Shown here in pieces: positions 11,863-64,000 of a DNA stretch of 64,000 bases. Source of the DNA: Methylobacterium aquaticum (GTDB lineage: Bacteria > Pseudomonadota > Alphaproteobacteria > Rhizobiales > Beijerinckiaceae); the NCBI RefSeq assembly GCF_016804325.1, contig NZ_CP043630.1, positions 1 to 64,000 on the forward strand. Reading direction: 5' to 3'. How positions within the stretch are numbered: position 1 is the first letter of the stretch; each line of letters begins with the position of its first letter. The notes beneath the pieces are model-generated. The model was given only the letters and a program-made list of their open reading frames with translations, searched no databases and had not been told where the DNA came from. Position numbers and translations under genes: made by a program.

Positions 11863-11911
11863 GAGAACCTCCCAGGAAGGAGGATCTCCAATAGGCATGC
11901 AAGGCACGCTG

Positions 11912-12594: not shown

Positions 12595-14394
12595 TCAGGA
12601 TGCATCCGCATTGTTTGAGGATGCTGCTGGCGCCTGTGACGAAACCCCGGCGGATGTGGCAAGCCGGCGCGGCGCGGTGAGCCAGCCCGCGGGGATGTAG
12701 CCCTTCTGCCGCTCGGGCCAGACGGTGGTCGGCCACGCGACCCGGTAGACATCCTTGAACCCGGTCACCACACCCCGCACTTCCTTGAGCGCCGGCTTGA
12801 GCTCCTTGCCGTCCTTGTCCTTGATGGCCTCGCGCACGACCTTGACACCAAGTGCCCCCTGCAGGGTTGAGACAGACACGACCGGACGGGTGCCCTCCTT
12901 CAGGATCCACTTGCGCTTGTCGTTGGGCTCGGGCGCTTCATTCGCTGCTCGCCATGTCACGAACCGATGTCCGATGAGCGACACGGCTGTATCGGAGGAC
13001 TCTCCGGACGAGAGCAGCGAAAAGATCCGGTAGCGGAACAAGTCTTGAACAACGGCACCGACTTCATGGCCATAGATAGTCTTGAGCTGACCTAAGCTTT
13101 GGATTGCTCCAACAACGACGAGACCCTTCTCACGGCCGAGCGCCAGGACCTGATCGAACCCGTCGATCCGGCCGAGGCTGTGCATCTCATCGAGCACGAG
13201 CGAGACGCGCCTGTCGGGATCGATACCGATGGCCGGATCGCTCATGAGGCTGACGAGCCGGCTCAGCAGCGTGCCCGAGACGAGCCGTGACAGCTCGTCA
13301 TATTCAGGTGAGGTCTGGAGGATCACGGCGCGGGGGCCGGTCCAGTCCTTGGACAGCCATGCCCGAACGGAGAAACGCCGTTCCGGCGGCAGGTCGGACC
13401 AAGCCAACGCGAGCGGCCTCAGGGCGCTCAGGGCTGCCGACCACAGGGTCGCCAGAACCCCGAACGCGGTGTTGGCTAGGCCGTCCGGTCCCTCGGCGAT
13501 GAGAGGGCTGGAGGAGAGGTCGAGCTGCCGGATGCGGGCCTCGATCTCGGCCGGATCGGACAGGATGCGACGAGCGAGATCGTCGATGGTCCAGTCTGTC
13601 CCGCGCTCCAGGGCGAGCTCCTGGCCGATGTCGACGAAGACGGCCCGGGCCGTCAGAGCCCAGAACGGCTGGTCGGACATCGGAATTGCGGCTGCGGCAA
13701 GCTCCATGAACCCGGCCAGCCCGGCGACGTCGCGTCCGGCATCCCAGGCCCAGCCCCGGGCGTGATGGGCCGCGATCAGGATAGCTTCGTTCTGCCGAAA
13801 CGCCCGAGTGACGTCACCCTTGACGCAGTGGAGCAGCATGCGGTCACCCCGCTGCGCCATCTGGGTCGCGAGCGCCCGCACGACATTGCTCTTGCCCGAA
13901 CCCTTGTCGCCGACCACCAGGATGAACTGCGTCTCGGCCTCGAAGGGCAATTGTACACCGGGTGTGAGCCAGAGGCCGCGCTTGGAGGTTCGACCGTAGG
14001 TTTCGTCGAGTGCGGCCTGCATCTTGCGCGCGGCGTAGACGTCATAATGCAGCACTGGATCGTCGTGATGAGGTACGCCGACCCGCTCGATCAGGGGAGT
14101 GCGCGTCCAGGCCTGCCGGGCAGCGAAAAGGCCGGCCACGATTGCTGCTAGCAGGACGCCGGCACAGCGCAGCTCCAGCGCGAAGTCGAACCAGCTGTCA
14201 CCGAACCATTGCAAGATTTGGGTGATGTCGATGGTGGGGGCGTGGCGGCCGGCATGCGCCCGAGGCGGTGCCCAGAGCATGACGGCCAGGAGTCCGAGAG
14301 GAAACACCGTGGCGATGACCTTCAGGGCTGCGAATGCGGCCTTGTCGGGGGAGCGGCGCGGTGCAGTGCCGATGCGGCTGGTGAGATCGACCAT
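12595..14394 (-). CDS. traG: Type IV coupling protein (TraG/TrwB/VirD4 type)
   Basis: The 599-aa protein starts at ATG 14394 (MVDLTSRIG) with GGAG upstream. Two N-terminal membrane helices (about 21-42 and 75-95) anchor it in the inner membrane. Walker A GDKGSGKS is at about 162-169, Walker B is VSLVLDEMHS near 380, and a VVVGAIQSLGQLKTIYG stretch is typical of the TrwB/TraD hexameric ATPase. It would bring the relaxase-DNA complex to a type IV secretion channel, but no channel genes are encoded in this unit. The C-terminal 40 residues are Ala/Ser rich. It is co-oriented with the three genes upstream. Confidence 0.9.
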   Translation of the reverse strand: MVDLTSRIGTAPRRSPDKAAFAALKVIATVFPLGLLAVMLWAPPRAHAGRHAPTIDITQILQWFGDSWFDFALELRCAGVLLAAIVAGLFAARQAWTRTPLIERVGVPHHDDPVLHYDVYAARKMQAALDETYGRTSKRGLWLTPGVQLPFEAETQFILVVGDKGSGKSNVVRALATQMAQRGDRMLLHCVKGDVTRAFRQNEAILIAAHHARGWAWDAGRDVAGLAGFMELAAAAIPMSDQPFWALTARAVFVDIGQELALERGTDWTIDDLARRILSDPAEIEARIRQLDLSSSPLIAEGPDGLANTAFGVLATLWSAALSALRPLALAWSDLPPERRFSVRAWLSKDWTGPRAVILQTSPEYDELSRLVSGTLLSRLVSLMSDPAIGIDPDRRVSLVLDEMHSLGRIDGFDQVLALGREKGLVVVGAIQSLGQLKTIYGHEVGAVVQDLFRYRIFSLLSSGESSDTAVSLIGHRFVTWRAANEAPEPNDKRKWILKEGTRPVVSVSTLQGALGVKVVREAIKDKDGKELKPALKEVRGVVTGFKDVYRVAWPTTVWPERQKGYIPAGWLTAPRRLATSAGVSSQAPAASSNNADAS

Positions 14395-14426
14395 GGGAAA
14401 GCTCCTGCAAGGAGGCGCCACGGGCT

Positions 14427-14988
14427 TTAGAAGCCGGAGGCGAGGAAGAGGGGGACGAGGCCGAGGATCAGGAAGGCGCCGAGGATCAGGCCACGGCGGT
14501 AGGCAGTCTGTTCGAAGGGCGGGACCGCCGCCGCACTCCACCAGCCCACGACGCCGTCGAGCGGCGTCGTGGTGGCCCTGCCGGCCTTGACGGCTTGGGG
14601 GGCTTGGCCCCCGGTCCGGTCGCCCGCGCCGAACCAGCCTGTGGGCGGGCTCGTGCCGAAGCTGGTCGAGCCGGCGCCGTAGCGTTCGGCCCCCGAGGCG
14701 CGGTCTCGACGGCAGCCGGACCCGGCGGCGGGGACCCGGCTTCGGGCGTGGACGGTCCGGGCAGCGTCCGGCGCAGCTCCGTCACGAATACCGTCATCCC
14801 CTCGGGCCCGAGCCGGCTCAACCGCTTGCCGTCGAGGACGCTCGGTGTCGCGATCACCTCTCGGGCCGTTCGGATCGCGAGTTCGTGTCGTGCGGCCTGG
14901 CCTTCCTCGAGGTTGGCCTGCTCGTCGATCGGGGGAAATGCGGGGGCGGGAGGACGGCCGCCCTGCGGCCTTACGTTGTCGTTGCACA

Positions 14989-18679: not shown

Positions 18680-19715
18680 ATGGGCGAGAGGACGGACGAG
18701 CGTAACGAGCTGGTGACGATCACCCCTCGAACCCACCACGTCGCCGGTTTGGGCGACCTAGTCCTACCAGCGACGATCGCCGCCGCCGGAGAGCGGGCGC
18801 AGTCGCGCTTCATCGAGTTCTTCACCGCCCGCATCCGCAACCGAAACACCCGGCGCGCGAAACACCCGGCGCGCCTATGGCCGTGCCGCCGGCGACTTTT
18901 TCACCTGGTGCGAGCAGCGCGGCGTGGCGCTTGCCGGCGTGCAGTCTGTCCATGTCGCCGCCTGGATCGAGGAGCTGGCATCGGCCGACCGTGAGCCGCG
19001 CCTGTCTGCCCCGAGCGTTAAGCAACACCTGGCCGCCGTGCGCATGCTGCTCGACTGGCTGGCGACCGGTGGCGTCCTCGCCTTCAACCCGGCCTCTGCC
19101 GTGCGCGGCCCGTGCTACTCGGTGAAAGGCGGTAAGACGCCCGTGCTCTCGCCTGAGGAGGCCCGGTACCTGCTCGGCAGCATCGACACGTCGACACCGA
19201 TCGGGCTGCGCGATCGGGCGTTGCTGGCCCTGATGGTGTTCAGCTTCGCCCGCGTCGGCGCGGCGCTCAGCATGAAGATGGAGGACGTCTACGTGCAGAA
19301 CCGCCGCCTATGGGTGCGGCTGCACGAGAAAGGCGGCAAGCTGCACACCATGCCCTGCCACCACACGCTCGAGGACGCCTTGCACGCCTATGTGGATGGC
19401 TGCGGCCTGGCAGATGACCCGAAAGGGCCGCTGTTCCGCACGATCGGGCGCGGCACCGGCCAGCTCACGACGACCGCCCTGCCCCAGGCCAGCGCGCATG
19501 CAATGGTCCGCCGGCGTGCGGTCGCGGCCGAGATCGGGACGCGGATCGGCAATCACACCTTCCGGGCCACCGGCATTACGGCCTATCTGAAAAACGGCGG
19601 TACGCTCGAACGGGCTGCGCAGATGGCGAACCATTCGAGCACTCGCACGACGCAGCTCTATGACCGGCGGCATGATGACATGAGCTTGGACGACGTCGAA
19701 CGGATCGGGATTTGA
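18680..19715 (+). pseudogene. Tyrosine recombinase/integrase, broken by a 16-bp tandem duplication
   Basis: The N-terminal frame starts at ATG 18680 (MGERTDERNELVT) after a GAGG site. The C-terminal frame, from about 18870, carries the catalytic set: Arg in FARVGAAL, His-x-x-Arg in HTFRATGI, His in ANHSSTRTTQ, and Tyr in LYDRR. The join contains CGAAACACCCGGCGCG twice in tandem (18842-18857 and 18858-18873). Removing one 16-mer restores a single 339-codon frame (NTRRAYGRAAGDFFTWCEQRG). The duplication is in both reads, so it is real and inactivates the gene. The recombinase may have brought in the restriction island to its right. Confidence 0.85.
18842..18873. repeat. 16-bp tandem duplication in the recombinase gene
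   Basis: Two exact copies of CGAAACACCCGGCGCG back to back. The net +16 shifts the frame by one. Confidence 0.95.
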
Positions 19716-19761: not shown

Positions 19762-20202
19762 ATGGATATTCTGACGCCTGAAGCCCGCGCGAAGCGCATG
19801 TCATTAATCAAAAATAAGAATACCAAGCCCGAATTGCTGGTTCGGCGTATGATTCACAGGATGGGATTTCGATATAGATTGCATGATAAAAAACTACCTG
19901 GATGTCCCGACATAGTCTTCCGCTCACGGAAGAAGGTGATTTTTGTCCACGGTTGCTTCTGGCATCGTCACGATGATCCAAATTGTACGAAGGGACGGCT
20001 TCCAAAATCGCGCCAGGATTTCTGGGAGCCCAAATTAAATGCGAACCGGGATCGAGATTGGCAGGCGGAGGAAACTCTTAAGCAAGCTGGCTGGGAGGTG
20101 ATGATTGTGTGGGAATGTCAATGTCGACGGATTGAGGAGCTCCGTGCGGCCTTATACGAGTTCGTCGCGGGGGTATCCCATGCCAAAAATCCGGGTGCAT
20201 AA
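19762..20202 (+). CDS. vsr: Vsr-type mismatch endonuclease
   Basis: The 146-aa protein has MDILTPEARAKRMSLIKNKNTKPE and the GCPDIVF block with the catalytic Asp. VHGCFWHRHDDPNC then carries the zinc and catalytic His residues. All are diagnostic for Vsr. These enzymes nick beside T:G mismatches left by deamination of 5-methylcytosine, and they usually travel with the m5C methyltransferase whose damage they repair. That is the next gene, 48 bases on. This is the first gene of the rightward restriction operon, and its base composition is lower in GC than the backbone. Confidence 0.93.
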   Translation: MDILTPEARAKRMSLIKNKNTKPELLVRRMIHRMGFRYRLHDKKLPGCPDIVFRSRKKVIFVHGCFWHRHDDPNCTKGRLPKSRQDFWEPKLNANRDRDWQAEETLKQAGWEVMIVWECQCRRIEELRAALYEFVAGVSHAKNPGA

Positions 20203-20249
20203 CCACTCTGGACCGTTGCCAGGCTTTTCCAAGGTTGGTAGGTTATGGC

Positions 20250-21566
20250 ATGGTTCTGACCCAACGAGACTGGCTACAAGTACGCGATGCGGCATCCCTC
20301 CTAGGAGTTTCAGAGAAAACTCTTCGGAACTGGGATAAGGCCGGAAAGCTACGTCCTGCCCGCCATCCGATCAATGGTTACCGGATATATAGGGCAGCGG
20401 ATCTACATGAACTAAAGCGCGAGCTAAATCGGCCTACTTACTTCCAAGAGTCGTTGGATCTCGGACCCCCGATGGGGCCGGCTTCCGTGTCGACCGCTGT
20501 GGCCGAACCTCAACCCGCCGTTCGCAAGAAACCCGTCGACGACGGTTCGATGCATTGGCGAGCCGAGGTTGCGCTTGATCCGAAACACCGCCCCCAGCTT
20601 TGGAATAAGCCCTCTTCGACGGTAAGACGGGATTGGCGCAAATATCCTCAGGAAGCGCACGTTCTAGACGAAGATTGTCGGCGATACCGCCGCTTGACGC
20701 CGTCCGAAATCGCCGTGTTGCAAGGATTTGATAACATACTTGCCAAAAATACCGGATTTTCCGACCGACAAGTCATAGCGGCGCTTGGCAACGCGGTACC
20801 TCCTCAAATGGCCCGTGCCGTGATGGAGGGGGTGTGCCAGATAAAGTCCTTCAAAAAACACACTTCGATAGAAGTGTGCGCAGGCATCGGCGGCCTTGCG
20901 AGGGGAGCTGCCGAGGTTGGTTTCAAACACTTATCATGTCTCGACATTGATCCCGTTTGCGTTCAATTCCTTAAAAGGATGCCGGAACTTAAAAATTCAG
21001 AAATTAGCTCCGATGATTTACGGTATGCCCGACTCGATAGGTTCAAAGGCAAAGTCGGCCTCTTATCGGGCGGACCGCCTTGTCAGCCGTGGTCGTCCGG
21101 TGGGCTCCGTCGTGGCTCCGAGGACGATCGCGACGTTCTTGGCGAGATGCCGAACCTTATCTGCGATATCGAACCAGAATGCTTCGTGTTTGAGAATGTT
21201 GCCGGCCTCACCACAGGGCAGAACAAATCATATTTTGAAAAATTAATGAAAAAACTTCAGGAACCAGGGCCTGCTCTTCGTTACGGCGTACTTGCGGCTA
21301 AGCTGAATGCGGCAGATTTCGGCGTGCCCCAGGTTCGCGAGCGTGTCTTCATCATCGGGTTTCGTGACGAACCAGCCGTGAAGGTTCATAGGTGCTTCGA
21401 CGCGATATGGAGTGCCCGCACGCATAGGGATCCGACCATCTCGGATGCGACGAGAAGCGAATGGCGCACGGTCGGCGAGGCGATCGGCGGTTTGCAAGAT
21501 CCCGGCGGATGGAAATCCTGGTTTGGAAACGCGATCCCGGCAGACAACTTCTGGAATGACGAGTGA
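20250..21566 (+). CDS. Circularly permuted m5C DNA methyltransferase with N-terminal HTH
   Basis: In this 438-aa protein the motif order is rearranged. Residues 8-60 form a MerR-like helix-turn-helix (WLQVRDAASLLGVSEKTLRNWDKAGKLRP). Residues 147-193 hold motifs IX-X (RRLTPSEIAVLQGF ... ALGNAVPPQMARAV), which normally close the protein. Motif I follows (about 206-214, EVCAGIGGL), then motif IV with catalytic C278 (GGPPCQPWS), ENV at 315-317 and QVRER at 361-365. Only about 65 residues follow motif VIII, so target recognition probably lies in residues 60-147. The ATG at 20250 is preferred; TTG at 20235 is possible. It overlaps the next gene as TGATG. The second read has one extra A near the end and stops two codons early. 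Confidence 0.88.
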   Translation: MVLTQRDWLQVRDAASLLGVSEKTLRNWDKAGKLRPARHPINGYRIYRAADLHELKRELNRPTYFQESLDLGPPMGPASVSTAVAEPQPAVRKKPVDDGSMHWRAEVALDPKHRPQLWNKPSSTVRRDWRKYPQEAHVLDEDCRRYRRLTPSEIAVLQGFDNILAKNTGFSDRQVIAALGNAVPPQMARAVMEGVCQIKSFKKHTSIEVCAGIGGLARGAAEVGFKHLSCLDIDPVCVQFLKRMPELKNSEISSDDLRYARLDRFKGKVGLLSGGPPCQPWSSGGLRRGSEDDRDVLGEMPNLICDIEPECFVFENVAGLTTGQNKSYFEKLMKKLQEPGPALRYGVLAAKLNAADFGVPQVRERVFIIGFRDEPAVKVHRCFDAIWSARTHRDPTISDATRSEWRTVGEAIGGLQDPGGWKSWFGNAIPADNFWNDE

Positions 21567-23601
21567 TGGACGACGTAACCATATCCAGCACTGATCGCGT
21601 CGAGCTAAATTGGCCGGGAAAACACGAAAAGGTCCGCGTTTTCCAAACCGACGAAGGCCTGTGGGATAAGGAACCAGTCTCGCATAAAGCCTCTCTGCGC
21701 GGCCTAGAAAAATTGAAATTCTTTCCTGGAAGCATTCCCGCCGAGGCATCGATACTTCTAAGTGGTCAGAGGCATGATGCCCTATCGTCGCTGACGCGAT
21801 CTCTGGGACCCGTATTTCGCTTCATCTACATGGATCTGCCAAGGCTCAACGTTGATGATGTTGCGACCGCTTTCCAAAGCGCGTCCTCGCTGCGTCTGAC
21901 AACCTGGTTGAACGTAGTACGGAATTTTTTGGTCGAGGTTCGAGAATTGCTCAGTCGTGACGGTGTCGTTGCCGTCCACTGCGGCGAGGACGAGTCTCAA
22001 TATGCACGCATCATCCTAGACGAGCTGTTTCGGGATAAGCGAGTCGCCACGATAATGTGGCAAAAGGCATACTCGGCTCAAAACATGCCCGGGATGAAGT
22101 CATTCACTGATACTCATGATCTTATTTACGTTTACGCACGCGACCGCGATGCATTGCCAGCGGTAGGCCTCAGGAGACCGCCCAAGGGTTACGCGAACGC
22201 CGATCATGATCCGAGGGGAGCTTGGAAGGCTGAGCACAAGGGCGCTAAAACCCGCCGAGAAAACAGCGACTTTGATACCTTTCAGCCGCCCTATCGCTGG
22301 AAGATCGTCAAGGGTGAGCTGCCTGCCGGGTTGTGGCGGTTATCGCCTTATACGGGCGTTATTTGGGGTGTGCCAACCGTAGCGGGAACTTTCAAGTTCA
22401 CCGCAGAGGTTACGGATATGCTCGGCAAGAGCAGCACCAAAGACTTTTCGATTACAGTGAAAAGCGCTGGCGAGCCGTCACCTCCGGGAGATATTCCCTG
22501 GATCTTCGAGGAGGTCAGCCCCAAGGGGAAGCTCAGGATCATAACCGATAAGTTGCCCGATGCGGTGGCGGACAAGACCTATTCGACCATTATTTTCGCT
22601 GATGGGGGGATCCCTTTAAAGGTCCAAAAATTAGGCCTGGTTCCGGACGATACTGGGATTTTGCGAAAGCCACGCTGATCGAAGCTTTCCAGAATGACTC
22701 CGTTTATCAGGGAAGTCGGCAACCGACTTCCATCCCCACCCCGAAGAAGTACGAGCCCCCTGAAGGGGTCATGGAAATCGAGAACCAACAGTCAATTTGG
22801 CTTGGCAGGTCGAAGGGCAGCGACGACGAAATCGGTGATGTCTTCGCCGGATTTACCGAGGATGCCACAAAGCATCTCAAGGCACTAAAAGCTCTTGGCC
22901 ATATCGAGTCCGAAATATCGACCGCCAAGCCCGAACGATTGATGCTACGTCTTCTAGATGTATTTACTAACAAGGGAGATTTAGTGCTTGAAGTCATGTC
23001 GAGCACTGCGGATCTCACCGCCGTCGCGTTGAAATCGGGACGTCGAGCGATCGCACTTCAAGGCTCATCGGAGCGAGACAAGTCGATAACGTCGGGCTGC
23101 GCCATTCCTCGTTTGCGAGCCGTCCTTAAGGGGATCGACCAAAATTTGGAAGACAAGATCCCAAAGGCTCGCATTTCAAAAGGTTCGTACATTCCGTATG
23201 CTGGCGGCGGAAGCTTGGCAACCGCCGTCGTGGGTCCGGAGATTGCAGTCCTGCTGGCCGACGATGACCATGCAACATTGACTGATGCGCTATCATCTAT
23301 GAACTCTCATGAGCTTGCCGAAGCCATATTAACAGCAGAAGGTTACCTTCCGCCGGCGAAGGGCACGGATCTCGCGCTCGCTATAAGTGGGAAAGAGAAA
23401 GCCCTAGTCGTTCCACCTGAGCGTTACCTCACCCCCGAATTAGTCTCGGCAATTGCGAGCGAAGCGGCAGCCGATGCGGACCCACGTCCGACTCACGTTT
23501 ATTATTTTCGAGCGACCGATGACATCGACGAAAAGTCATTCGCCGGTAGGGTCTCGCTGAGACGCATTCCCTTCGATCTGCTAAGGCTGGATGTCGCGTA
23601 A
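21566..23601 (+). CDS. Type III Mod-like protein with degenerate catalytic motifs (frame interrupted at a G-tract)
   Basis: The family fold is clear: WLNVVRNFLVEVRELLSRDG, then MWQKAYSAQNMPGMKSF, NADHDPRGAWK, RYWDFAKATLIEAF, and late AKPERLMLRLLDVFTNKGD. The two hallmark motifs are lost. DPPY reads DLPR (residues 90-93) and the AdoMet-binding FxGxG region reads EVMSSTA. Residues about 248-300 match the putative-Ig consensus (LPAGLWRLSPYTGVIWGVP), an unusual insert. Both reads have G6 at 22604-22609; seven G would join the two frames into about 678 codons. It is probably a DNA-recognition subunit without methylation activity. The start overlaps the m5C gene and the stop overlaps the helicase gene. 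Confidence 0.8.
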
Positions 23602-25514
23602 TGTCGGGACTGCGTGAGTATGCCCTTTCGCACGCGTATGATGCTGTTGTTGCGAAAGCGAGCTTCCGCAAACCTCAGCACGAGGCGTTCGATAAATTTC
23701 ACCAGCTAATTAAAGCTCTCGGCGCCGACATAGGTTCGATGAGCCAGGAGGCATTAGCTGGTCGGATCTCCGATCTGGGCTATCTTGAGAGCATACCTGC
23801 CAACCTGATTTTTGATCTCGCCACCGGAGTCGGAAAAACTCGTCTCTTGGGCGGGTTGCTGGTTTATTTGGCATTGTCGAAGCAGACCAGAAATTGTCTT
23901 ATTCTGGCTCCTCGTGTAGCCATTCTCGATAAGTTGAAGCGAGAAAGCGATCCGTCATCCTCGAAGTATCTTTTTATCGATCGATCATTGGTCACAAATC
24001 CTAATATTTGCTTTCGCAGTGATTTGTTGAGCTTCGAGCCAAATCCATCCAAGCTGAATGTTTTTATCCTTTCACCTCAGACTTTAACTGGTACCAAAGT
24101 GGGAACAGCCGGTGATTTCGGTCCATCTCTTCGGCAATATCTGACCGAGACGAACGATCTAATCGTTTTTTCCGATGAGGCACACCATTTTGGGAACAAG
24201 TCATTTGGTGCTTGGAGCGAAGCCGTTGCACAGCTTCAACCGAAGCTCCATCTGGGATTTACCGCGACTGCGCCGACGAGCGCAGCGAAGCGCATATTCT
24301 ACTCCTATGGCCTGAATACATGTCTGAAAGAAGGAAAATACACGAAGGCCGTGAAGCTTTGGGTAGAGCCGAAGCCCGAAGATATTTCGGACGATGATTG
24401 GGACCATCAAACCATCGATTTCGGTTTGAAACGGCTTGAGGCTAAAAAAGAATCTATTGCAGAACTGCGGTCCGCCAAGCCGGATTTCCCGGAGGTATCT
24501 CCGGTCCTTCTAGTTGCTGCGAAAGATATCGCCCATGCTGATAAAATTGGTCTTTGGTTGCAAAACTATCGTGGACTCGACGAGTCCGAAGTCTATGTCG
24601 CTCACTCGGGCAAAAAGGCTTCTGCAAAAGTCACCGGAAATGCGATAGAAGCTGAGGTCGGGCGATTGGTAGCAATCGACCAACCAGGTAACAAGGTTAA
24701 GGTTGTCGTAAACGTTTTTCAGCTATCCGAAGGTTGGGACGTCACCAACGTTTGGGTGATTGCACCCCTTCGGTCGCTGGCAAGCTTCTCCAATGCCATC
24801 CAAACAATCGGAAGAGGACTACGGCTTCCAAGCGGCCGACGCGTGGGTGACGAAGAGACCGATACGCTCGACGTTCTATGCTTCGGCAAGGAGGATTTCG
24901 GGACGATCGTGAAGCAAGCCACGAAGGAGTTTGGGGAAGGTCCGGAAGGCTCTGCGGCCGTCGGCATTGTTGCCAAAAGCGAACATCGTGTCCGCGCCAT
25001 GCGCCCGATGTCGCTAGAAGTTGTAAACGCCATCTCGTTTAAGGTGCCAGAGGTCGTTCGCACGCCGGGAGAGCCCGAGTTGGACTTTTCGCCCCAGATC
25101 ACGCGAGGCATCAGCTCGTATGTAGAAGTCTACGATGTTGGAAGCGGAGAGTTCGGCAGCGACGACGGGTCCGCAGTCCGCAGAAGCTTCGAGACGGTCG
25201 TGCGAGCAGCGACATCGCAGGTAATCGATGGTCTCAGGTTCCTCGATCCCGTCAAGCATACGCCCGCCGTCCGAAAGATTGTAGAGAAAGTTCTTTTGGA
25301 TCTTGGCGGTAAGCCAGGAATGCAAATATCGACCGACGCCGTCAAGCTGGGACTTGGGGTCATGGATGCGATACGAAGTCGGTACCGGAGCATCGACTCG
25401 GTTTACGCGGCCGGTAAAACGTCAACGATTGTCGAAATCGCTTCGAAGGAAGTTCTAATTCCTGTCGAATTTGACGAAATTCCCTCGGTCGACCAGATTG
25501 TTGAGTGGAAATGA
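23601..25514 (+). CDS. Type III restriction Res-like SF2 helicase
   Basis: The 637-aa protein has Walker A ATGVGKT at residues 74-80, DEAH at 192-195, TAT at 221-223, VNVFQLSEGWDVTNVW (motif V) and QTIGRGLRLP (motif VI). This is the ATPase/translocase core of type III Res subunits. The usual C-terminal nuclease domain is absent and is supplied by the next gene, which overlaps as ATGA. It begins on the last base of the Mod-like stop codon. It should translocate along or switch on DNA after recognition by the Mod-like partner. This is the only complete read; the second copy is cut by the window end. Confidence 0.9.
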   Translation: MSGLREYALSHAYDAVVAKASFRKPQHEAFDKFHQLIKALGADIGSMSQEALAGRISDLGYLESIPANLIFDLATGVGKTRLLGGLLVYLALSKQTRNCLILAPRVAILDKLKRESDPSSSKYLFIDRSLVTNPNICFRSDLLSFEPNPSKLNVFILSPQTLTGTKVGTAGDFGPSLRQYLTETNDLIVFSDEAHHFGNKSFGAWSEAVAQLQPKLHLGFTATAPTSAAKRIFYSYGLNTCLKEGKYTKAVKLWVEPKPEDISDDDWDHQTIDFGLKRLEAKKESIAELRSAKPDFPEVSPVLLVAAKDIAHADKIGLWLQNYRGLDESEVYVAHSGKKASAKVTGNAIEAEVGRLVAIDQPGNKVKVVVNVFQLSEGWDVTNVWVIAPLRSLASFSNAIQTIGRGLRLPSGRRVGDEETDTLDVLCFGKEDFGTIVKQATKEFGEGPEGSAAVGIVAKSEHRVRAMRPMSLEVVNAISFKVPEVVRTPGEPELDFSPQITRGISSYVEVYDVGSGEFGSDDGSAVRRSFETVVRAATSQVIDGLRFLDPVKHTPAVRKIVEKVLLDLGGKPGMQISTDAVKLGLGVMDAIRSRYRSIDSVYAAGKTSTIVEIASKEVLIPVEFDEIPSVDQIVEWK

Positions 25515-25951
25515 CCCTCTATCGCGTTCCAATCGGTGGATGGAAAAAGTGCGTCTATAGTGCTGCTGCTTTTGAAAGCGCACCAGAGTACCATGCAGCA
25601 AAAATTCTGGATAAAGACGCGTCTGTCGTCTGGTGGCTCAGGAATGATCCCGCACAATTTCGTATTCCGACTCCGGCGGGGTACTTCGAGCCGGACTTTA
25701 TTTACCTCGCTACCATGAAGGGATCCAATCGTATGCGGATTCTTGAGATCAAGGGCGAGCACCTCTGGAATGGGCCGGGATCATCGGCCAGGGTCAAGGC
25801 CGCAGGGGCAGCTGCCTGGGCTAAAGCGGTTCATGAGGCGAAAACTGAGCCCTATTGGGAGTTTCACGAAGTTCTAGGGCAAGATGCCGAAGCCTCGATG
25901 ACGTTGGGAAGCATGTTGGACAAGGCGGTGATCTGCTTCCAGGTTCCCTAA
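25511..25951 (+). CDS. PD-(D/E)xK nuclease subunit, split from Res
   Basis: The 146-aa protein has FRIPTPAGYFEPDFIYL and MRILEIKGEH, giving the catalytic set P61-D62 ... E79-I-K81. The WWLRNDP ... FRIPTPAG lead-in is what normally precedes the nuclease core at the C-terminus of type III Res proteins. Here it is a separate polypeptide translated from a four-base overlap with the helicase. It probably assembles with the helicase to cut DNA. This is the last gene of the operon; an insertion-sequence remnant follows. Confidence 0.85.
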   Translation: MTLYRVPIGGWKKCVYSAAAFESAPEYHAAKILDKDASVVWWLRNDPAQFRIPTPAGYFEPDFIYLATMKGSNRMRILEIKGEHLWNGPGSSARVKAAGAAAWAKAVHEAKTEPYWEFHEVLGQDAEASMTLGSMLDKAVICFQVP

Positions 25952-26097: not shown

Positions 26098-27507
26098 TCA
26101 CACCGCCAGCACGCGGGCGCGCAGCAGGTCGAGCTTGGCACGCCCGTACATCGTCCGCTTCAGCGTCTTCACGCGGTTGATCTGTCCCTCGACGGGGCTC
26201 GTGCTCCAGGACAGCGCGAGCGCGGCTTCCACGGCGGCCCGATCCCGCCTCAACCTCTCCGCCAGGCCGCTCAGCGGGCATCGCGACAGCGATCCAGCCA
26301 CGCACCGAACCCGGCCTGATCCTGCTCCCGCACGATCACCGTGAAGGCTTTCACCTCCGCAAGCGCACGCTCGATCTCGGGGACGGCGGCCACCAGGGCA
26401 TCGAGGAAGTGCCCGTCCATCTCGCCATGCTCACCGTCGGTCAGGAGAAGCCGCGCCGCCCGCCGTGGCGACGGGCGCCGCCAGACTGGATTAGATGCAG
26501 GTCGCGTCCGCGGCGGGCCGCCGAGAGCAGCAACGCAGAGCCGGACGCTCATCACGCCACCCCGGAAGCCCGAGGCCTGCAGCTCGCGCCAAAGCTGCGT
26601 CGCGTTGCGCTCGCCTTCGTCGAGCCGCCGCACGAGGTAGGGCACGAAGGGATCGATGATCCGCGCCCGTTCGCCCTTGTGCCAGGTCGGCGCCGTACCG
26701 GCTCGCAGCCAGTGCCGCACCGTATTCCGCGACAGACCGGTCTCACGCACGATGGCGCGGATGCCCTGGCCGTCCCGAGGCAGGGCGGCAACATGCTGGA
26801 AGCGGGCCTCCCGGTCCGCCTGACCCTGCCGCTGTCGCTGGTGCGCTTTGGTAACCGGACGGGATTCGACCGGCTGCGCTTCCGCTGCGGCTCGGCTCAC
26901 GATGGTTCGCGCGACACGGGAGAACTCGCCGCGGTGCCGATTGAGCACCTGCACCAGCGCTTGCGAGCCGTTGCAGAGCAGATGCCATCGATCCGCGACC
27001 TGGACCGCCCCGGGGGCGCCGCGACGCACGCCATCGGCGTAGGCACCGGTCCGGTCGCGAGCCACGACCTCGACGCCGGGATGCCGCTGCAGCGAGTCGG
27101 CCACGGTGGCGGCCTCGCGGTCGGGCAGCAGGTCGATGACCTAGCCTCGTTCCAGATCGCACAGGATCGTGCCGTAGCGCTGACCACGCCGCCAGGCCCA
27201 ATCGTCGATGCTGAGCACCCGCGGTGCGCGGTCTGCCTGCGCGGGCGCACGACCTCGCACGAGGCGCAGCAGCGTGTCGGGGCTGATTGGCAGGCCGAGG
27301 CGCCCCGCCAGGCGTGCGCCGGCCTCACCACCGAGCGCGAGACCGAGGTGGTGCTGAAGGTCGCCGAGGCGGTGAGTGCGGCGTGCGCCGGCCAGAGCAA
27401 CGCCGGCGAGGCGCTCGGCGAAGACATGGCGCGGGCAGTATAGCTGCGGACAACGCCATCGCCGCGTCTGGGCCGCGATGACGACGCGCTGACCCTGCCA
27501 GAAATCA
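26098..27507 (-). pseudogene. ISL3-type transposase remnant
   Basis: Read leftward, pieces line up with a DDE transposase of the ISL3 group. They are CPQLYCPRHVFAERLAGVAL near the N-terminus, SIDDWAWRRGQRYGTILCDLERG, then VIDLLPDREAATVADSLQRHPGVEVVARDR, ADRWHLLCN, and a C-terminal SPVEGQINRVKTLKR block. A TAG replaces the expected Arg codon between LERG and VIDL (near 27140). The last 60 residues are in another frame, and the N-terminal zinc-binding segment is missing. It lies in unique sequence read once, so the frame change could be a read error, but the loss of the N-terminus is real. The element ends were not identified. Confidence 0.75.
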
Positions 27508-28885: not shown

Positions 28886-29467
28886 TCACTTGGCCGGCCG
28901 CTGCCACCCGGCCCGCTCAAGCGTGTCGATCAGCGTCGAGCGGGCGATCTTGAACGACCGACAGACCGAGGCCTTGCTGGCGCCACCGTCGAGCGCCGCC
29001 GTGATCTGCTCGAGCTGCTCACCGCCGATCGTCGGTGGTCGGCCGCCGCGGCGCCCTCGGCGCTTGGCTGCTGCGAGTCCGGCGATCACGCGCTCCCGGG
29101 TGAGCTGGCGCTCGAACTGCGCAAGCGCACCGAACAGCGAGAACAGCAGCTCGCCGTGCGGTGTCGCGGTGTCCATTGCCTCGGTGAGCGAGCGAAACGC
29201 GACGCCACGCTTCCGCAGGTCACCCATGACCTCCAGGAGGTGTGGGAGGCTGCGGCCGAGACGGTCGAGCTTCCACACCACGAGGGTGTCGCCCGCCTTG
29301 AGATAGGTGAGGCAGGCCTTCAGCCCGGGCCGGTCGTCCCGGGATCCGGAGGCGTGGTCCTGGTAGAGGTGGCGGTCGTCGACGCTGGCGGCCATGAGCG
29401 CGTCGCGCTGCAGGTCGACCGATTGACGCTCGTCGGCCGTCGACACCCGCATGTACCCGACCAGCAT
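28886..29467 (-). CDS. Serine recombinase (resolvase/invertase), first of two
   Basis: The 193-aa protein starts MLVGYMRVSTADERQ with catalytic Ser9. LVVWKLDRLGRSLPHLL and FGALAQFERQLTRERV follow, with a C-terminal HTH (GASKASVCRSFKIARSTLIDTL). It belongs to the Tn3 resolvase/DNA invertase family, small type. It resolves cointegrates or inverts DNA. The inverted repeat TGTGCGGAAA / TTTCCGCACA (29467-29501) overlaps the start and is the likely recombination or operator site. Confidence 0.9.
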   Translation of the reverse strand: MLVGYMRVSTADERQSVDLQRDALMAASVDDRHLYQDHASGSRDDRPGLKACLTYLKAGDTLVVWKLDRLGRSLPHLLEVMGDLRKRGVAFRSLTEAMDTATPHGELLFSLFGALAQFERQLTRERVIAGLAAAKRRGRRGGRPPTIGGEQLEQITAALDGGASKASVCRSFKIARSTLIDTLERAGWQRPAK

Positions 29468-29501
29468 GTGCGGAAAACCCTTCAAACCATATTTCCGCAC
29501 A
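29467..29501. promoter_or_regulatory. Inverted repeat at the resolvase start
   Basis: TGTGCGGAAA (29467-29476) and TTTCCGCACA (29492-29501) are exact complements, 15 bases apart, at the start of the serine recombinase gene. It is a likely res subsite or operator. Confidence 0.55.
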
Positions 29502-30372: not shown

Positions 30373-31842
30373 ATGACGGACCCCACCATCATGGCCTCGT
30401 TCGTGGACCTGGCCGAGGACCAGCGCCAGCTGGCCATGGCGCGCTTCGCCGTGCTCCAGCCGACGCTGGAGAACGATGTGCCCCTGATCCGCGCCGCCGC
30501 GCAGGCCGACGTGCCGCTGCGAACCGCCCAGCGCTGGCTTGCGCGGTATCGCCATGACGGGTTGGTTGGCCTTTCCCGTGCCGGTCGGCGCGACGCGGGC
30601 CACAGCCGCCTGCCCGCCGATCTCGTGACCCTGATCGAGGGCATGGCCCTGCGACGGCCACGATCCTCGGCCGCCGCCATCCATCGAAGGGCCGCTGCCG
30701 TCGCCGAGGCTCAGGGCTGGCGCATCCCCTCCTACAGCACGGTCTACGCCATCCTCGCTCGCCTCGATCCGGCGATGGTGACCCTGGCACTCGACGGACC
30801 CGCCGCCTTCCGGGACCGCTACGAGCTGATCGTCCGTCACCGGGCGAGCGCGCCCAACGCGCTCTGGCAAGCCGATCACACGCTCCTCGACATCCTCGTT
30901 CTCGACGAAGGCGGCAGATCGGTCCGGCCCTGGCTCACGACAGTGATCGACGACCACTCGCGGGCGATCGCCGGCACCACGCTGTTCCTCGGGGCGCCCT
31001 CGGCGCTCAACACCAGCTTGGCGCTCCGCCACGCTATCTGGCGCAAGGCCGACCCCGCCTGGCCCGTCTGCGGCATCCCGGATGTGCTCTACGTCGATCA
31101 CGGCAGCGACTTCACCAGCCATCACCTCGATCAGGTGGCGGCCAACCTGCGCGTCCAGATCGTCCACTCCGGCGTCGCCCGCCCGCAGGGTCGAGGCAAG
31201 ATCGAGCGCCTGTTCGGGACCCTCAACACCGAACTCCTGCCCGAACTACCCGGCCACCTCGTCGACGGTAAGCCGGCCAGTCCGCCGGTCCTCTCGCTGG
31301 CCGACCTGGATCGGGCGGTCGGCGCTTTCATCAGCTGCACCTATCACGGGCGCACGCATGGCGAGATCGGGCAAACGCCGCTCGATGCGTGGCAGGCGAA
31401 CGGCTTCCTGCCCCGCCTTCCCGAGACCCTCGAGGCGCTCGACCTTCTTCTGGTAATGGTCGCCAAGCCGCGCTGCGTGCGCCGTGACGGCATCCACTTC
31501 CAGGGTCTGCGCTACGTCGCCTCGACCCTGGCGGCCTATGTCGGCGAGGCCGTCACGATCCGCTACGACCCGCGCGACGTCTCCGAGATCCGGGTCTTTC
31601 ATCGCGACCGTTTCCTATGCCGGGCGGTGAGCGAGGAGCATGCCGGGGAAGCTCTCAGCCTCAAGGACATCGAGGCGGCCCGTCGCCTGCACCGTCGTGC
31701 CTTGCGCACCGCCATCAACGAGCGCGTGGCGCGCGTCGCGGACTTCCTGCCCGACTCCACTCGTTCCCAGCGCCAGGCCGCACCGGACCGCTCCGCGACT
31801 CGGCCACGGTTGCGCTTGTATCAGGCGGAGGACGAAGGATGA
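30373..31842 (+). CDS. tniA: TniA-type DDE transposase
   Basis: The 489-aa protein has an N-terminal HTH region (AAQADVPLRTAQRWLARYRHDG). The integrase core follows with D168 (QADHTLLD), D242 (VDHGSDF) and E278 (GKIERLFG); the last two are spaced as DD35E. A Mu-type C-terminal β-domain comes next. GGGGAG precedes the ATG. It overlaps the AAA+ partner gene as ATGA. The pair resembles the core of Tn402/Tn5053/Tn552-type transposons, which move by replicative transposition and need a resolvase; two lie next door. No TniQ gene was found. Confidence 0.9.
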   Translation: MTDPTIMASFVDLAEDQRQLAMARFAVLQPTLENDVPLIRAAAQADVPLRTAQRWLARYRHDGLVGLSRAGRRDAGHSRLPADLVTLIEGMALRRPRSSAAAIHRRAAAVAEAQGWRIPSYSTVYAILARLDPAMVTLALDGPAAFRDRYELIVRHRASAPNALWQADHTLLDILVLDEGGRSVRPWLTTVIDDHSRAIAGTTLFLGAPSALNTSLALRHAIWRKADPAWPVCGIPDVLYVDHGSDFTSHHLDQVAANLRVQIVHSGVARPQGRGKIERLFGTLNTELLPELPGHLVDGKPASPPVLSLADLDRAVGAFISCTYHGRTHGEIGQTPLDAWQANGFLPRLPETLEALDLLLVMVAKPRCVRRDGIHFQGLRYVASTLAAYVGEAVTIRYDPRDVSEIRVFHRDRFLCRAVSEEHAGEALSLKDIEAARRLHRRALRTAINERVARVADFLPDSTRSQRQAAPDRSATRPRLRLYQAEDEG

Positions 31843-58913: not shown

Positions 58914-59354
58914 ATGGATATTCTGACGCCTGAAGCCCGCGCGAAGCGCATGTCATTAATCAAAAATAAGAATACCAAGCCCGAATTGCTGGTTCGGCGT
59001 ATGATTCACAGGATGGGATTTCGATATAGATTGCATGATAAAAAACTACCTGGATGTCCCGACATAGTCTTCCGCTCACGGAAGAAGGTGATTTTTGTCC
59101 ACGGTTGCTTCTGGCATCGTCACGATGATCCAAATTGTACGAAGGGACGGCTTCCAAAATCGCGCCAGGATTTCTGGGAGCCCAAATTAAATGCGAACCG
59201 GGATCGAGATTGGCAGGCGGAGGAAACTCTTAAGCAAGCTGGCTGGGAGGTGATGATTGTGTGGGAATGTCAATGTCGACGGATTGAGGAGCTCCGTGCG
59301 GCCTTATACGAGTTCGTCGCGGGGGTATCCCATGCCAAAAATCCGGGTGCATAA
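58914..59354 (+). CDS. vsr: Vsr-type mismatch endonuclease, second read
   Basis: Identical to 19762-20202. Confidence 0.93.
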   Translation: MDILTPEARAKRMSLIKNKNTKPELLVRRMIHRMGFRYRLHDKKLPGCPDIVFRSRKKVIFVHGCFWHRHDDPNCTKGRLPKSRQDFWEPKLNANRDRDWQAEETLKQAGWEVMIVWECQCRRIEELRAALYEFVAGVSHAKNPGA

Positions 59355-59401
59355 CCACTCTGGACCGTTGCCAGGCTTTTCCAAGGTTGGTAGGTTATGG
59401 C

Positions 59402-60712
59402 ATGGTTCTGACCCAACGAGACTGGCTACAAGTACGCGATGCGGCATCCCTCCTAGGAGTTTCAGAGAAAACTCTTCGGAACTGGGATAAGGCCGGAAAG
59501 CTACGTCCTGCCCGCCATCCGATCAATGGTTACCGGATATATAGGGCAGCGGATCTACATGAACTAAAGCGCGAGCTAAATCGGCCTACTTACTTCCAAG
59601 AGTCGTTGGATCTCGGACCCCCGATGGGGCCGGCTTCCGTGTCGACCGCTGTGGCCGAACCTCAACCCGCCGTTCGCAAGAAACCCGTCGACGACGGTTC
59701 GATGCATTGGCGAGCCGAGGTTGCGCTTGATCCGAAACACCGCCCCCAGCTTTGGAATAAGCCCTCTTCGACGGTAAGACGGGATTGGCGCAAATATCCT
59801 CAGGAAGCGCACGTTCTAGACGAAGATTGTCGGCGATACCGCCGCTTGACGCCGTCCGAAATCGCCGTGTTGCAAGGATTTGATAACATACTTGCCAAAA
59901 ATACCGGATTTTCCGACCGACAAGTCATAGCGGCGCTTGGCAACGCGGTACCTCCTCAAATGGCCCGTGCCGTGATGGAGGGGGTGTGCCAGATAAAGTC
60001 CTTCAAAAAACACACTTCGATAGAAGTGTGCGCAGGCATCGGCGGCCTTGCGAGGGGAGCTGCCGAGGTTGGTTTCAAACACTTATCATGTCTCGACATT
60101 GATCCCGTTTGCGTTCAATTCCTTAAAAGGATGCCGGAACTTAAAAATTCAGAAATTAGCTCCGATGATTTACGGTATGCCCGACTCGATAGGTTCAAAG
60201 GCAAAGTCGGCCTCTTATCGGGCGGACCGCCTTGTCAGCCGTGGTCGTCCGGTGGGCTCCGTCGTGGCTCCGAGGACGATCGCGACGTTCTTGGCGAGAT
60301 GCCGAACCTTATCTGCGATATCGAACCAGAATGCTTCGTGTTTGAGAATGTTGCCGGCCTCACCACAGGGCAGAACAAATCATATTTTGAAAAATTAATG
60401 AAAAAACTTCAGGAACCAGGGCCTGCTCTTCGTTACGGCGTACTTGCGGCTAAGCTGAATGCGGCAGATTTCGGCGTGCCCCAGGTTCGCGAGCGTGTCT
60501 TCATCATCGGGTTTCGTGACGAACCAGCCGTGAAGGTTCATAGGTGCTTCGACGCGATATGGAGTGCCCGCACGCATAGGGATCCGACCATCTCGGATGC
60601 GACGAGAAGCGAATGGCGCACGGTCGGCGAGGCGATCGGCGGTTTGCAAGATCCCGGCGGATGGAAATCCTGGTTTGGAAACGCGATCCCGGCAGACAAA
60701 CTTCTGGAATGA
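59402..60712 (+). CDS. Circularly permuted m5C methyltransferase, second read
   Basis: Same gene as 20250-21566. One extra A near 60698 replaces the last five residues (NFWND E becomes KLLE) and removes the overlap with the next gene. All motifs are unaffected. Confidence 0.85.
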   Translation: MVLTQRDWLQVRDAASLLGVSEKTLRNWDKAGKLRPARHPINGYRIYRAADLHELKRELNRPTYFQESLDLGPPMGPASVSTAVAEPQPAVRKKPVDDGSMHWRAEVALDPKHRPQLWNKPSSTVRRDWRKYPQEAHVLDEDCRRYRRLTPSEIAVLQGFDNILAKNTGFSDRQVIAALGNAVPPQMARAVMEGVCQIKSFKKHTSIEVCAGIGGLARGAAEVGFKHLSCLDIDPVCVQFLKRMPELKNSEISSDDLRYARLDRFKGKVGLLSGGPPCQPWSSGGLRRGSEDDRDVLGEMPNLICDIEPECFVFENVAGLTTGQNKSYFEKLMKKLQEPGPALRYGVLAAKLNAADFGVPQVRERVFIIGFRDEPAVKVHRCFDAIWSARTHRDPTISDATRSEWRTVGEAIGGLQDPGGWKSWFGNAIPADKLLE

Positions 60713-60718
60713 CGAGTG

Positions 60719-62752
60719 ATGGACGACGTAACCATATCCAGCACTGATCGCGTCGAGCTAAATTGGCCGGGAAAACACGAAAAGGTCCGCGTTTTCCAAA
60801 CCGACGAAGGCCTGTGGGATAAGGAACCAGTCTCGCATAAAGCCTCTCTGCGCGGCCTAGAAAAATTGAAATTCTTTCCTGGAAGCATTCCCGCCGAGGC
60901 ATCGATACTTCTAAGTGGTCAGAGGCATGATGCCCTATCGTCGCTGACGCGATCTCTGGGACCCGTATTTCGCTTCATCTACATGGATCTGCCAAGGCTC
61001 AACGTTGATGATGTTGCGACCGCTTTCCAAAGCGCGTCCTCGCTGCGTCTGACAACCTGGTTGAACGTAGTACGGAATTTTTTGGTCGAGGTTCGAGAAT
61101 TGCTCAGTCGTGACGGTGTCGTTGCCGTCCACTGCGGCGAGGACGAGTCTCAATATGCACGCATCATCCTAGACGAGCTGTTTCGGGATAAGCGAGTCGC
61201 CACGATAATGTGGCAAAAGGCATACTCGGCTCAAAACATGCCCGGGATGAAGTCATTCACTGATACTCATGATCTTATTTACGTTTACGCACGCGACCGC
61301 GATGCATTGCCAGCGGTAGGCCTCAGGAGACCGCCCAAGGGTTACGCGAACGCCGATCATGATCCGAGGGGAGCTTGGAAGGCTGAGCACAAGGGCGCTA
61401 AAACCCGCCGAGAAAACAGCGACTTTGATACCTTTCAGCCGCCCTATCGCTGGAAGATCGTCAAGGGTGAGCTGCCTGCCGGGTTGTGGCGGTTATCGCC
61501 TTATACGGGCGTTATTTGGGGTGTGCCAACCGTAGCGGGAACTTTCAAGTTCACCGCAGAGGTTACGGATATGCTCGGCAAGAGCAGCACCAAAGACTTT
61601 TCGATTACAGTGAAAAGCGCTGGCGAGCCGTCACCTCCGGGAGATATTCCCTGGATCTTCGAGGAGGTCAGCCCCAAGGGGAAGCTCAGGATCATAACCG
61701 ATAAGTTGCCCGATGCGGTGGCGGACAAGACCTATTCGACCATTATTTTCGCTGATGGGGGGATCCCTTTAAAGGTCCAAAAATTAGGCCTGGTTCCGGA
61801 CGATACTGGGATTTTGCGAAAGCCACGCTGATCGAAGCTTTCCAGAATGACTCCGTTTATCAGGGAAGTCGGCAACCGACTTCCATCCCCACCCGAAGAA
61901 GTACGAGCCCCCTGAAGGGGTCATGGAAATCGAGAACCAACAGTCAATTTGGCTTGGCAGGTCGAAGGGCAGCGACGACGAAATCGGTGATGTCTTCGCC
62001 GGATTTACCGAGGATGCCACAAAGCATCTCAAGGCACTAAAAGCTCTTGGCCATATCGAGTCCGAAATATCGACCGCCAAGCCCGAACGATTGATGCTAC
62101 GTCTTCTAGATGTATTTACTAACAAGGAGATTTAGTGCTTGAAGTCATGTCGAGCACTGCGGATCTCACCGCCGTCGCGTTGAAATCGGGACGTCGAGCG
62201 ATCGCACTTCAAGGCTCATCGGAGCGAGACAAGTCGATAACGTCGGGCTGCGCCATTCCTCGTTTGCGAGCCGTCCTTAAGGGATCGACCAAAATTTGGA
62301 AGACAAGATCCCAAAGGCTCGCATTTCAAAAGGTTCGTACATTCCGTATGCTGGCGGCGGAAGCTTGGCAACCGCCGTCGTGGGTCCGGAGATTGCAGTC
62401 CTGCTGGCCGACGATGACCATGCAACATTGACTGATGCGCTATCATCTATGAACTCTCATGAGCTTGCCGAAGCCATATTAACAGCAGAAGGTTACCTTC
62501 CGCCGGCGAAGGGCACGGATCTCGCGCTCGCTATAAGTGGGAAAGAGAAAGCCCTAGTCGTTCCACCTGAGCGTTACCTCACCCCCGAATTAGTCTCGGC
62601 AATTGCGAGCGAAGCGGCAGCCGATGCGGACCCACGTCCGACTCACGTTTATTATTTTTCGAGCGACCGATGACATCGACGAAAAGTCATTCGCCGGTAG
62701 GGTCTCGCTGAGACGCATTCCCTTCGATCTGCTAAGGCTGGATGTCGCGTAA
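60719..62752 (+). CDS. Type III Mod-like protein, second read (several frameshifts)
   Basis: Same gene as 21566-23601. It shares the G6 interruption (61757-61762). It also has private one-base changes near 61893, 62127, 62282 and 62656, which split the C-terminal half further. The first read is the better version. Confidence 0.7.
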
Positions 62753-64000
62753 TGTCGGGACTGCGTGAGTATGCCCTTTCGCACGCGTATGATGCTGTTG
62801 TTGCGAAAGCGAGCTTCCGCAAACCTCAGCACGAGGCGTTCGATAAATTTCACCAGCTAATTAAAGCTCTCGGCGCCGACATAGGTTCGATGAGCCAGGA
62901 GGCATTAGCTGGTCGGATCTCCGATCTGGGCTATCTTGAGAGCATACCTGCCAACCTGATTTTTGATCTCGCCACCGGAGTCGGAAAAACTCGTCTCTTG
63001 GGCGGGTTGCTGGTTTATTTGGCATTGTCGAAGCAGACCAGAAATTGTCTTATTCTGGCTCCTCGTGTAGCCATTCTCGATAAGTTGAAGCGAGAAAGCG
63101 ATCCGTCATCCTCGAAGTATCTTTTTATCGATCGATCATTGGTCACAAATCCTAATATTTGCTTTCGCAGTGATTTGTTGAGCTTCGAGCCAAATCCATC
63201 CAAGCTGAATGTTTTTATCCTTTCACCTCAGACTTTAACTGGTACCAAAGTGGGAACAGCCGGTGATTTCGGTCCATCTCTTCGGCAATATCTGACCGAG
63301 ACGAACGATCTAATCGTTTTTTCCGATGAGGCACACCATTTTGGGAACAAGTCATTTGGTGCTTGGAGCGAAGCCGTTGCACAGCTTCAACCGAAGCTCC
63401 ATCTGGGATTTACCGCGACTGCGCCGACGAGCGCAGCGAAGCGCATATTCTACTCCTATGGCCTGAATACATGTCTGAAAGAAGGAAAATACACGAAGGC
63501 CGTGAAGCTTTGGGTAGAGCCGAAGCCCGAAGATATTTCGGACGATGATTGGGACCATCAAACCATCGATTTCGGTTTGAAACGGCTTGAGGCTAAAAAA
63601 GAATCTATTGCAGAACTGCGGTCCGCCAAGCCGGATTTCCCGGAGGTATCTCCGGTCCTTCTAGTTGCTGCGAAAGATATCGCCCATGCTGATAAAATTG
63701 GTCTTTGGTTGCAAAACTATCGTGGACTCGACGAGTCCGAAGTCTATGTCGCTCACTCGGGCAAAAAGGCTTCTGCAAAAGTCACCGGAAATGCGATAGA
63801 AGCTGAGGTCGGGCGATTGGTAGCAATCGACCAACCAGGTAACAAGGTTAAGGTTGTCGTAAACGTTTTTCAGCTATCCGAAGGTTGGGACGTCACCAAC
63901 GTTTGGGTGATTGCACCCCTTCGGTCGCTGGCAAGCTTCTCCAATGCCATCCAAACAATCGGAAGAGGACTACGGCTTCCAAGCGGCCGACGCGTGGGTG
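62752..64000 (+). CDS. Res-like SF2 helicase, second read (cut by window end)
   Basis: The first 416 codons of the gene at 23601-25514. The window ends inside motif VI. Confidence 0.88.
   Translation, partial: MSGLREYALSHAYDAVVAKASFRKPQHEAFDKFHQLIKALGADIGSMSQEALAGRISDLGYLESIPANLIFDLATGVGKTRLLGGLLVYLALSKQTRNCLILAPRVAILDKLKRESDPSSSKYLFIDRSLVTNPNICFRSDLLSFEPNPSKLNVFILSPQTLTGTKVGTAGDFGPSLRQYLTETNDLIVFSDEAHHFGNKSFGAWSEAVAQLQPKLHLGFTATAPTSAAKRIFYSYGLNTCLKEGKYTKAVKLWVEPKPEDISDDDWDHQTIDFGLKRLEAKKESIAELRSAKPDFPEVSPVLLVAAKDIAHADKIGLWLQNYRGLDESEVYVAHSGKKASAKVTGNAIEAEVGRLVAIDQPGNKVKVVVNVFQLSEGWDVTNVWVIAPLRSLASFSNAIQTIGRGLRLPSGRRVG

Follow-up and report, generated by a model that had tools for sequence, protein, structure and literature searches.

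What is a type III DNA methyltransferase without its catalytic motifs doing in one operon with an apparently intact cytosine methyltransferase? The question is raised by a 64,000-nucleotide stretch of Methylobacterium aquaticum DNA (assembly GCF_016804325.1, contig NZ_CP043630.1, positions 1 to 64,000; here the window), where five genes on the forward strand encode a Vsr-type endonuclease, a 5-methylcytosine (m5C) DNA methyltransferase, a Mod-like protein that we call the dead Mod, a Res helicase/ATPase and a separate nuclease. We predict, with moderate confidence, that they form an ATP-dependent restriction-modification system whose dead Mod likely reads the target and serves as the common docking subunit of the m5C enzyme and the Res-nuclease pair; in our reading a type III scaffold would have been kept with its adenine chemistry retired.

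The dead Mod is encoded in two overlapping frames, an N-terminal part at 21566..22678 (+; PF01555 E 6.9e-9) and a C-terminal part at 22615..23601 (+; PF01555 E 2.1e-4, PADLOC MTase_III E 3.8e-12). The Mod fold, with a recognition domain between two methyltransferase-fold halves, is present, and the first frame contains an Ig-like He_PIG insert (PF05345 E 1.7e-7). At the motif IV position DLPR replaces DPPY (21833..21844, +), and at the motif I position EVMSSTAD replaces FxGxG (22990..23013, +). Of 7997 scored candidates, 94 are relatives of P0127, the homolog from Microvirga sesbaniae, at E <= 1e-10. We limited the family to P0133-P0217, since P0217 is followed by a drop in score from E 2.6e-60 to 9.5e-19, and left out P0132, a shorter record of the Microvirga protein; with P0127, the fusion protein P0131 from an Armatimonadetes bin and the two window parts, the family table holds 89 rows. 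The pattern [DNS]PP[YFWH] occurs in none of the 85 rows that cover motif IV, which read DxPR (82 rows), EPAR (2) or EPPR (1), and FxGxG in none of the 86 rows that cover motif I. By comparison, seven of eight weaker matches taken as an outgroup (P0218-P0225) have DPPF or DPPY in the motif IV columns, the eighth being unrelated there, and a DPPY-type motif was found in 68 of 71 viral loci fetched by the dead-Mod profile as a control, with DxPR in none of the other three. The relatives are mostly 34-56% identical to the Microvirga protein. In a subset of 39 rows DxPR never varies at D, P or R, a pattern that resembles a retained function more than decay. The degenerate motifs that an earlier note had described in the window protein are thus family-wide, and no relative with intact DPPY and FxGxG was found among the checkable ones that sit with an m5C-type gene. 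The recognition region of the dead Mods is as conserved as the rest of the protein, unlike that of working Mods; the working-Mod control was pre-filtered for DPPY and FxGxG, which partly accounts for its peaks at these motifs but not for its low recognition region. This conservation favours a fixed DNA target for the family, although a fixed protein interface would give the same picture.

The gene set is found in other genomes. A pattern scan of species genomes gave 11 loci, three of which hold this system. The M. sesbaniae locus (L010) encodes a helix-turn-helix (HTH)-m5C enzyme of 439 amino acids (aa), a one-frame dead Mod of 678 aa, a Res of 635 aa and a nuclease of 153 aa, with a convergent vsr gene behind the nuclease, and every gene of the set is uninterrupted. 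Sphingomonas sp. H160509 (L011) has vsr, m5C enzyme, Mod, Res and nuclease ordered as in the window, with broken Mod and Res frames. In the Armatimonadetes bin (L012; 6,480 bp) the m5C enzyme and dead Mod share one open frame of ~1,035 aa that contains masked bases towards its end, and the Res, its frame interrupted at masked bases, carries a fused nuclease. A vsr gene was seen in three of the four loci read, the short L012 contig ending at the m5C gene. The gene order, which it had been suggested to seek elsewhere, recurs in independent genomes, as do the lost motifs, which is more than chance would give.

The m5C enzyme (20250..21566, +; 438 aa) joins an HTH (MerR PF00376 E 2e-10) to a circularly permuted methyltransferase (PF00145 E 4.2e-46). 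It has the motifs CAGIGGL, GGPPCQPW, FENV and QVRERV, and it stands, as first noted, as the only methyltransferase of the operon with intact motifs. Among 122 relatives examined, PPC, EN[VI] and QxRxR are each found in 121, and the motif order IX, X, I, IV, VI, VIII holds in all 40 proteins that match all six regular expressions; the remaining 82 failed at least one expression, and in two of them that for PPC fell on the linker before motif X. M.HaeIII aligned as two pieces in swapped order. The recognition stretch, from motif VIII to IX, consists of the C-tail and approximately residues 101-147, and a structure model (predicted local distance difference test 85.2 and predicted template modelling score (pTM) 0.75 overall) places coil and short helices there. 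Conservation within the protein peaks at residues 101-140 (P0128 numbering), where the mean pairwise identity over 108 proteins is 0.75-0.85; a portion of the HTH reaches 0.73, and the surroundings of motifs I, IV and VI reach 0.62-0.65. The string LDPKHRPQ within residues 101-140 occurs in 119 of 132 proteins, fusions included. The recognition domain would be reduced at most, and its absence is not clear. The idea that the m5C enzyme has no recognition domain was weakened, the core without the HTH being about as long as M.HaeIII; VIA-align covered M.HhaI 1-192 and M.HaeIII 1-185, a sequential aligner being unable to follow a permutation. We also set aside the idea that the HTH reads the target, as no HTH is among the listed Pfam domains in 6 of 10 m5C-dead Mod fusions (P0206-P0211). 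In five of these six the conserved block starts at residue 24-30, leaving no room for an HTH, and the start of P0206 is cut short; some of those fusions could also miss their true start.

Several observations tie this enzyme to the dead Mod. We compared 41 loci, of which L006 was retrieved through its similarity in Mod and the others (L004, L005 and L010-L047) through that in Res; 38 of the 41 have a Mod-like open reading frame (ORF). An m5C-type ORF accompanies the DxPR Mod in 3 of 3 cases (L010, L011 and L012) and was found in 0 of the 38 other loci within the DNA retrieved there; the Mod-like ORFs of those 38 loci have a DPPY-type motif in 33 of 35 cases and neither motif in the other two. 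Most relatives are protein-collection entries without readable gene context, and for these we paired contigs by identical size. The Mod list (86 entries) shares 37 sizes with the Res list (120) and 40 with the methyltransferase list (119), and 25 occur in all three; shifting the sizes by ten offsets as a control left 0-1 (Mod/Res) and 0-2 (Mod/methyltransferase) pairings. Across the 25 contigs the pairwise distances of Res, Mod and methyltransferase are congruent (r 0.915, 0.868 and 0.838; Mantel p <= 1e-4). In ten proteins (P0131, P0206-P0211 and P0214-P0216) the m5C enzyme and dead Mod form one chain, with PPC and ENV in 10 of 10; these fusions are the strongest hint that the two act as a unit.

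The part of the operon predicted to cut DNA follows the dead Mod. The Res helicase/ATPase (23601..25514, +; 637 aa; PF04851 E 3.9e-17, PADLOC REase_III E 1.3e-32) keeps ATGVGKT, DEAH and GRGLR, was placed in Res family A1 and lacks a nuclease domain. As the earlier note had it, a nuclease follows as its own gene, a PD...ExK endonuclease of 146 aa (25511..25951, +; PF19778 E 1.7e-8) with a PD...EIK motif; relatives of this nuclease stand after Res in L010 (59% identity) and L011 (67%) and are fused to Res in L012 (43%). Family scans identified Vsr and this type III endonuclease domain as the sole nucleases among the operon proteins. At E <= 1e-30, 1272 of 7997 scored candidates are relatives of the window Res. 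Among 120 listed Res relatives, 71 are 600-660 aa long and none of them has a nuclease motif near its end, 39 are at least 700 aa long, and 10 are shorter. The endonuclease domain lies outside Res in the window, L010 and L011, and is fused to it in L012 and, as a C-terminal motif, in 30 of the 39 long listed relatives. The split-off nuclease is therefore a feature of one part of the family.

The two Mod copies of EcoP15I divide the work, ModA reading the site and ModB methylating (PMC4490356), so a Mod that only reads would be a small step. In the mechanism that we propose, the dead Mod would read one site and dock both the m5C enzyme and Res, taking the reading role of one EcoP15I Mod copy, and the m5C enzyme would replace the catalytic copy and methylate a cytosine in or beside the site. 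Where the mark is missing, the dead Mod would load Res, ATP would drive sliding or translocation, and the separate nuclease would cut. Vsr would mend T:G mismatches that arise from deaminated m5C, and the HTH may act as a repressor of the promoter of this operon, like that of M.Ecl18kI-type enzymes; HTH-fused C5 enzymes regulate their operons (PMC12707154). We also put forward, more tentatively and as a possibility that falls somewhat short of even chances, an adenine-to-cytosine switch in which a Mod, turned into a pseudo-methyltransferase, came to serve as the specificity subunit of a permuted m5C enzyme whose recognition domain is reduced, so that one dead Mod would direct both the mark and the ATP-driven cut at a target constant across the family. 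Such a subunit would be a bacterial counterpart of METTL14.

Some results weigh against this reading. The recognition stretch of the m5C enzyme measures ~73 residues compared with ~87 in M.HaeIII, and its recognition domain may be complete though small; the conserved recognition region of the dead Mod may be a protein interface instead of a DNA reader. The gene order was read in four loci only, linkage in most relatives being inferred from matching contig sizes, and a model of the fusion protein (pTM 0.61) has a disordered linker and predicts no fixed arrangement of the halves. The window's own Mod frame is interrupted.

The strongest rival is the functional model of the earlier note, in which the m5C enzyme marks its own site and the dead Mod, Res and nuclease independently read the same site and are blocked by m5C. 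We kept its restriction-modification parts and replaced its separate halves by one shared recognition subunit, which is favoured by the m5C-Mod fusions, by the congruence of the distances and by the conservation seen on the recognition side of both proteins. Two halves are supported by the length of the HTH-less m5C core and by the fact that in most members of the family the m5C enzyme is a protein of its own. CglI/NgoAVII offers a precedent: its isolated C5 enzyme is active, and cutting is left to a distinct nuclease and ATPase (PMC4267653). This activity in isolation leaves the model a real share of probability, to the detriment of a shared subunit. The ten fusions and the congruent Res, Mod and methyltransferase distances speak against two independent halves, as does a motif VIII-IX stretch predicted as coil and short helices with a near-invariant N-terminal part, and we judge this model the less likely of the two.

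A second alternative is that the dead Mod occludes sites against invader methyltransferases, or reads modified DNA for Res and nuclease in a type IV-like manner, the m5C enzyme being regulatory. It draws on DndH, whose inactive adenine methyltransferase domain has been proposed to be dominant negative against invader methylases (PMC10853773). Yet linkage and fusion to a motif-intact m5C enzyme, and vsr in three loci, fit self-marking better, and no DndF, DndG or DndH family match above the cut-off was found among the six proteins; the only Dnd-family match, of Res to dnd_restrict_1, lies below threshold at 13.1 bits against a cut-off of 600. We regard this alternative as improbable.

The interrupted Mod frame of the window bears on the last alternative. 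Where the earlier note described a single Mod-like gene, the Mod-like character with DLPR and EVMSSTAD stood, and the single gene did not, its frame being broken near 22.6 kb: there is a stop at 22678, and homology resumes in another frame from ~22.61 kb to 23601. Both parts are conserved relative to P0143 (68% over 351 aa for the first, 74% over 329 columns for the second), and the break point at ~22600-22625 is present identically in both copies of this region on the contig. The Sphingomonas Mod breaks within the same few codons (~8000-8025, around Ala-Asp-Gly-Gly); the Microvirga Mod is a single frame there, as are most listed relatives judged by length and coverage. The shared position of the break would fit a programmed frameshift or phase variation, and the unbroken relatives speak against this; the break may also be a long-read error or real decay. 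That the whole locus is a decaying type III system lying beside an m5C gene by accident, or an assembly artefact, as the broken Mod frames in the window and L011 and the indel errors of the contig might suggest, is highly improbable given that the lost motifs, DxPR, linkage and fusions recur in such distant relatives and that L010 holds every gene uninterrupted.

We compared the assembly with known systems. DruM and DrmMII, of Druantia type III and DISARM class 2, match the m5C enzyme only, and Res matches REase_III first; for what we take to be the signature genes of these systems, DruE, DruH, DrmA, DrmB and DrmC, PADLOC listed no match for the other five proteins. Like type III EcoP15I (Mod2Res1; PMC4490356), the system has a Mod fold with internal recognition domain, a superfamily 2 (SF2) helicase Res and a type III endonuclease domain; it departs from EcoP15I in the loss of DPPY and FxGxG from its Mod, in the presence of an m5C enzyme and Vsr, and in a nuclease encoded by its own gene. 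It shares with CglI/NgoAVII (PMC4267653) a C5 methyltransferase, a separate SF2 ATPase and a separate nuclease, and among systems that combine an m5C mark with such a split of ATPase and nuclease, CglI/NgoAVII is the nearest functional analogue. DndH (PMC10853773) likewise keeps a methyltransferase fold with eroded S-adenosylmethionine and [SDN]PP[FYW] motifs in a restriction protein with recognition domains; in contrast, it is part of a large DndFGH-system protein, belongs to the gamma-type methyltransferase group and has no m5C partner in the portion of the paper available. The m5C enzyme resembles natural permuted C5 methyltransferases such as M.BssHII (PMC5944983), in which motifs IX and X precede I and the permutation lies in the variable region, but its recognition stretch is short and partly near-invariant and it is linked or fused to the dead Mod. 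Type III-like helicases, cytosine methylases and Vsr-type nucleases also occur together in MORC/paraMORC neighbourhoods (PMC2292703); those are defined by GHKL ATPases, which gave no match among the six proteins scanned, and no dead Mod appears in the part of that paper available.

Every part of the operon thus belongs to a known family, and for each of the type III, CglI/NgoAVII, Druantia/DISARM and DndFGH systems it lacks one or more of the defining features that we tested. Searches of open PubMed Central full texts (preprints, most subscription papers and REBASE being outside this scope) yielded no account of an m5C enzyme that is paired with a dead type III Mod, which agrees with the earlier statement that no system with this set was known, and the available portions of PMC2413257 and PMC12114051 hold nothing on such a system. 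There is a real chance that the assembly deserves its own restriction-modification class.

The gene set is rare in the surveyed genomes. The window Res was found in 1 of 99 related genomes, namely the source itself, and the Mod profile, with the best few candidates per genome scored, gave one match in 385 genomes of the class (itself) and one in 291 genomes of the L012 phylum (that of L012). A tblastn search with the Microvirga dead Mod matched 3 of 50,697 phage and 117 of 72,556 plasmid records; none of these matches covers 80% of the dead Mod, all are below 60% identity, the best rows are at 25-31%, and only some were inspected for DPPY. Viral contigs scanned with the window Res alone gave nothing, and viral profile scans gave only loci without DxPR. 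Two alphaproteobacterial plasmids (L004 1-6817 and L005 1-7676) carry an SNF2-related gene followed by an intact DPPY/DPPF type III Mod and Res.

At the upstream end of the operon, vsr (19762..20202, +) encodes a very short patch repair endonuclease homolog of 146 aa that scores above the curated cut-offs of PF03852 (E 2.6e-29; 101.3 bits, cut-off 27) and TIGR00632 (E 1.3e-42; 144.8 bits, cut-off 97.85), with relatives beside the same genes in L011 (57% identity) and L010 (53%). The gene order and the overlaps TGATG (21564-21568), TAATG (23599-23603) and ATGA (25511-25514) are as first described, and the gap between vsr and the m5C gene is 47 bp to the in-frame ATG at 20250 and not 48 bp as given before. 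In self-comparison, window positions 1-24849 equal 39151-64000 at 99.92% identity with 1 mismatch and 19 gap openings, nearly all differences being one-base indels within short runs. The full contig measures 66,072 bp and the self-repeat has a period of 39,150 bp, most simply explained by a circular plasmid of ~39.15 kb whose assembly probably continued beyond the point where it began. The second copy of the block (58914..64000, +; vsr, m5C enzyme, dead Mod and the start of Res) is then most likely the same DNA re-read by the assembly and would be no independent operon.

The plasmid may be mobilisable, as it encodes a TrwC-type relaxase (9100-11907) and a TrwB-type coupling protein (12595-14541). 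Mobile genes surround the operon: a tyrosine integrase immediately upstream (18924-19715), an ISL3-type transposase (26271-27104), a resolvase (28886-29500), a Mu-type transposase (30373-31842) and IS66 transposases (2262-3542 and 37350-38630). A YaaC-like protein of unknown function (PF14175; 27510-28550) lies between the transposon genes. A GmrSD_N (PF03235) gene and an AAA ATPase gene (32821-35284) lie 7 kb downstream of the operon. Their relatives (40% and 34%) stand as a pair close behind the Microvirga operon (L010 13012-15175), and the two genes form a second candidate defence pair in the same neighbourhood.

Pfam and PADLOC scans label the operon proteins as ordinary type II and type III parts, which is a warning for annotation. 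If our reading is true, the operon represents an undescribed way of building a restriction system, a natural design that distributes reading, marking and cutting over chains that are separate or exchangeable. A methyltransferase's target reading and its chemistry would then be separable and exchangeable in evolution, an adenine enzyme being kept as the reader for a mark set by an unrelated cytosine enzyme, and because the non-catalytic role would have its own protein, this idea would be directly testable.

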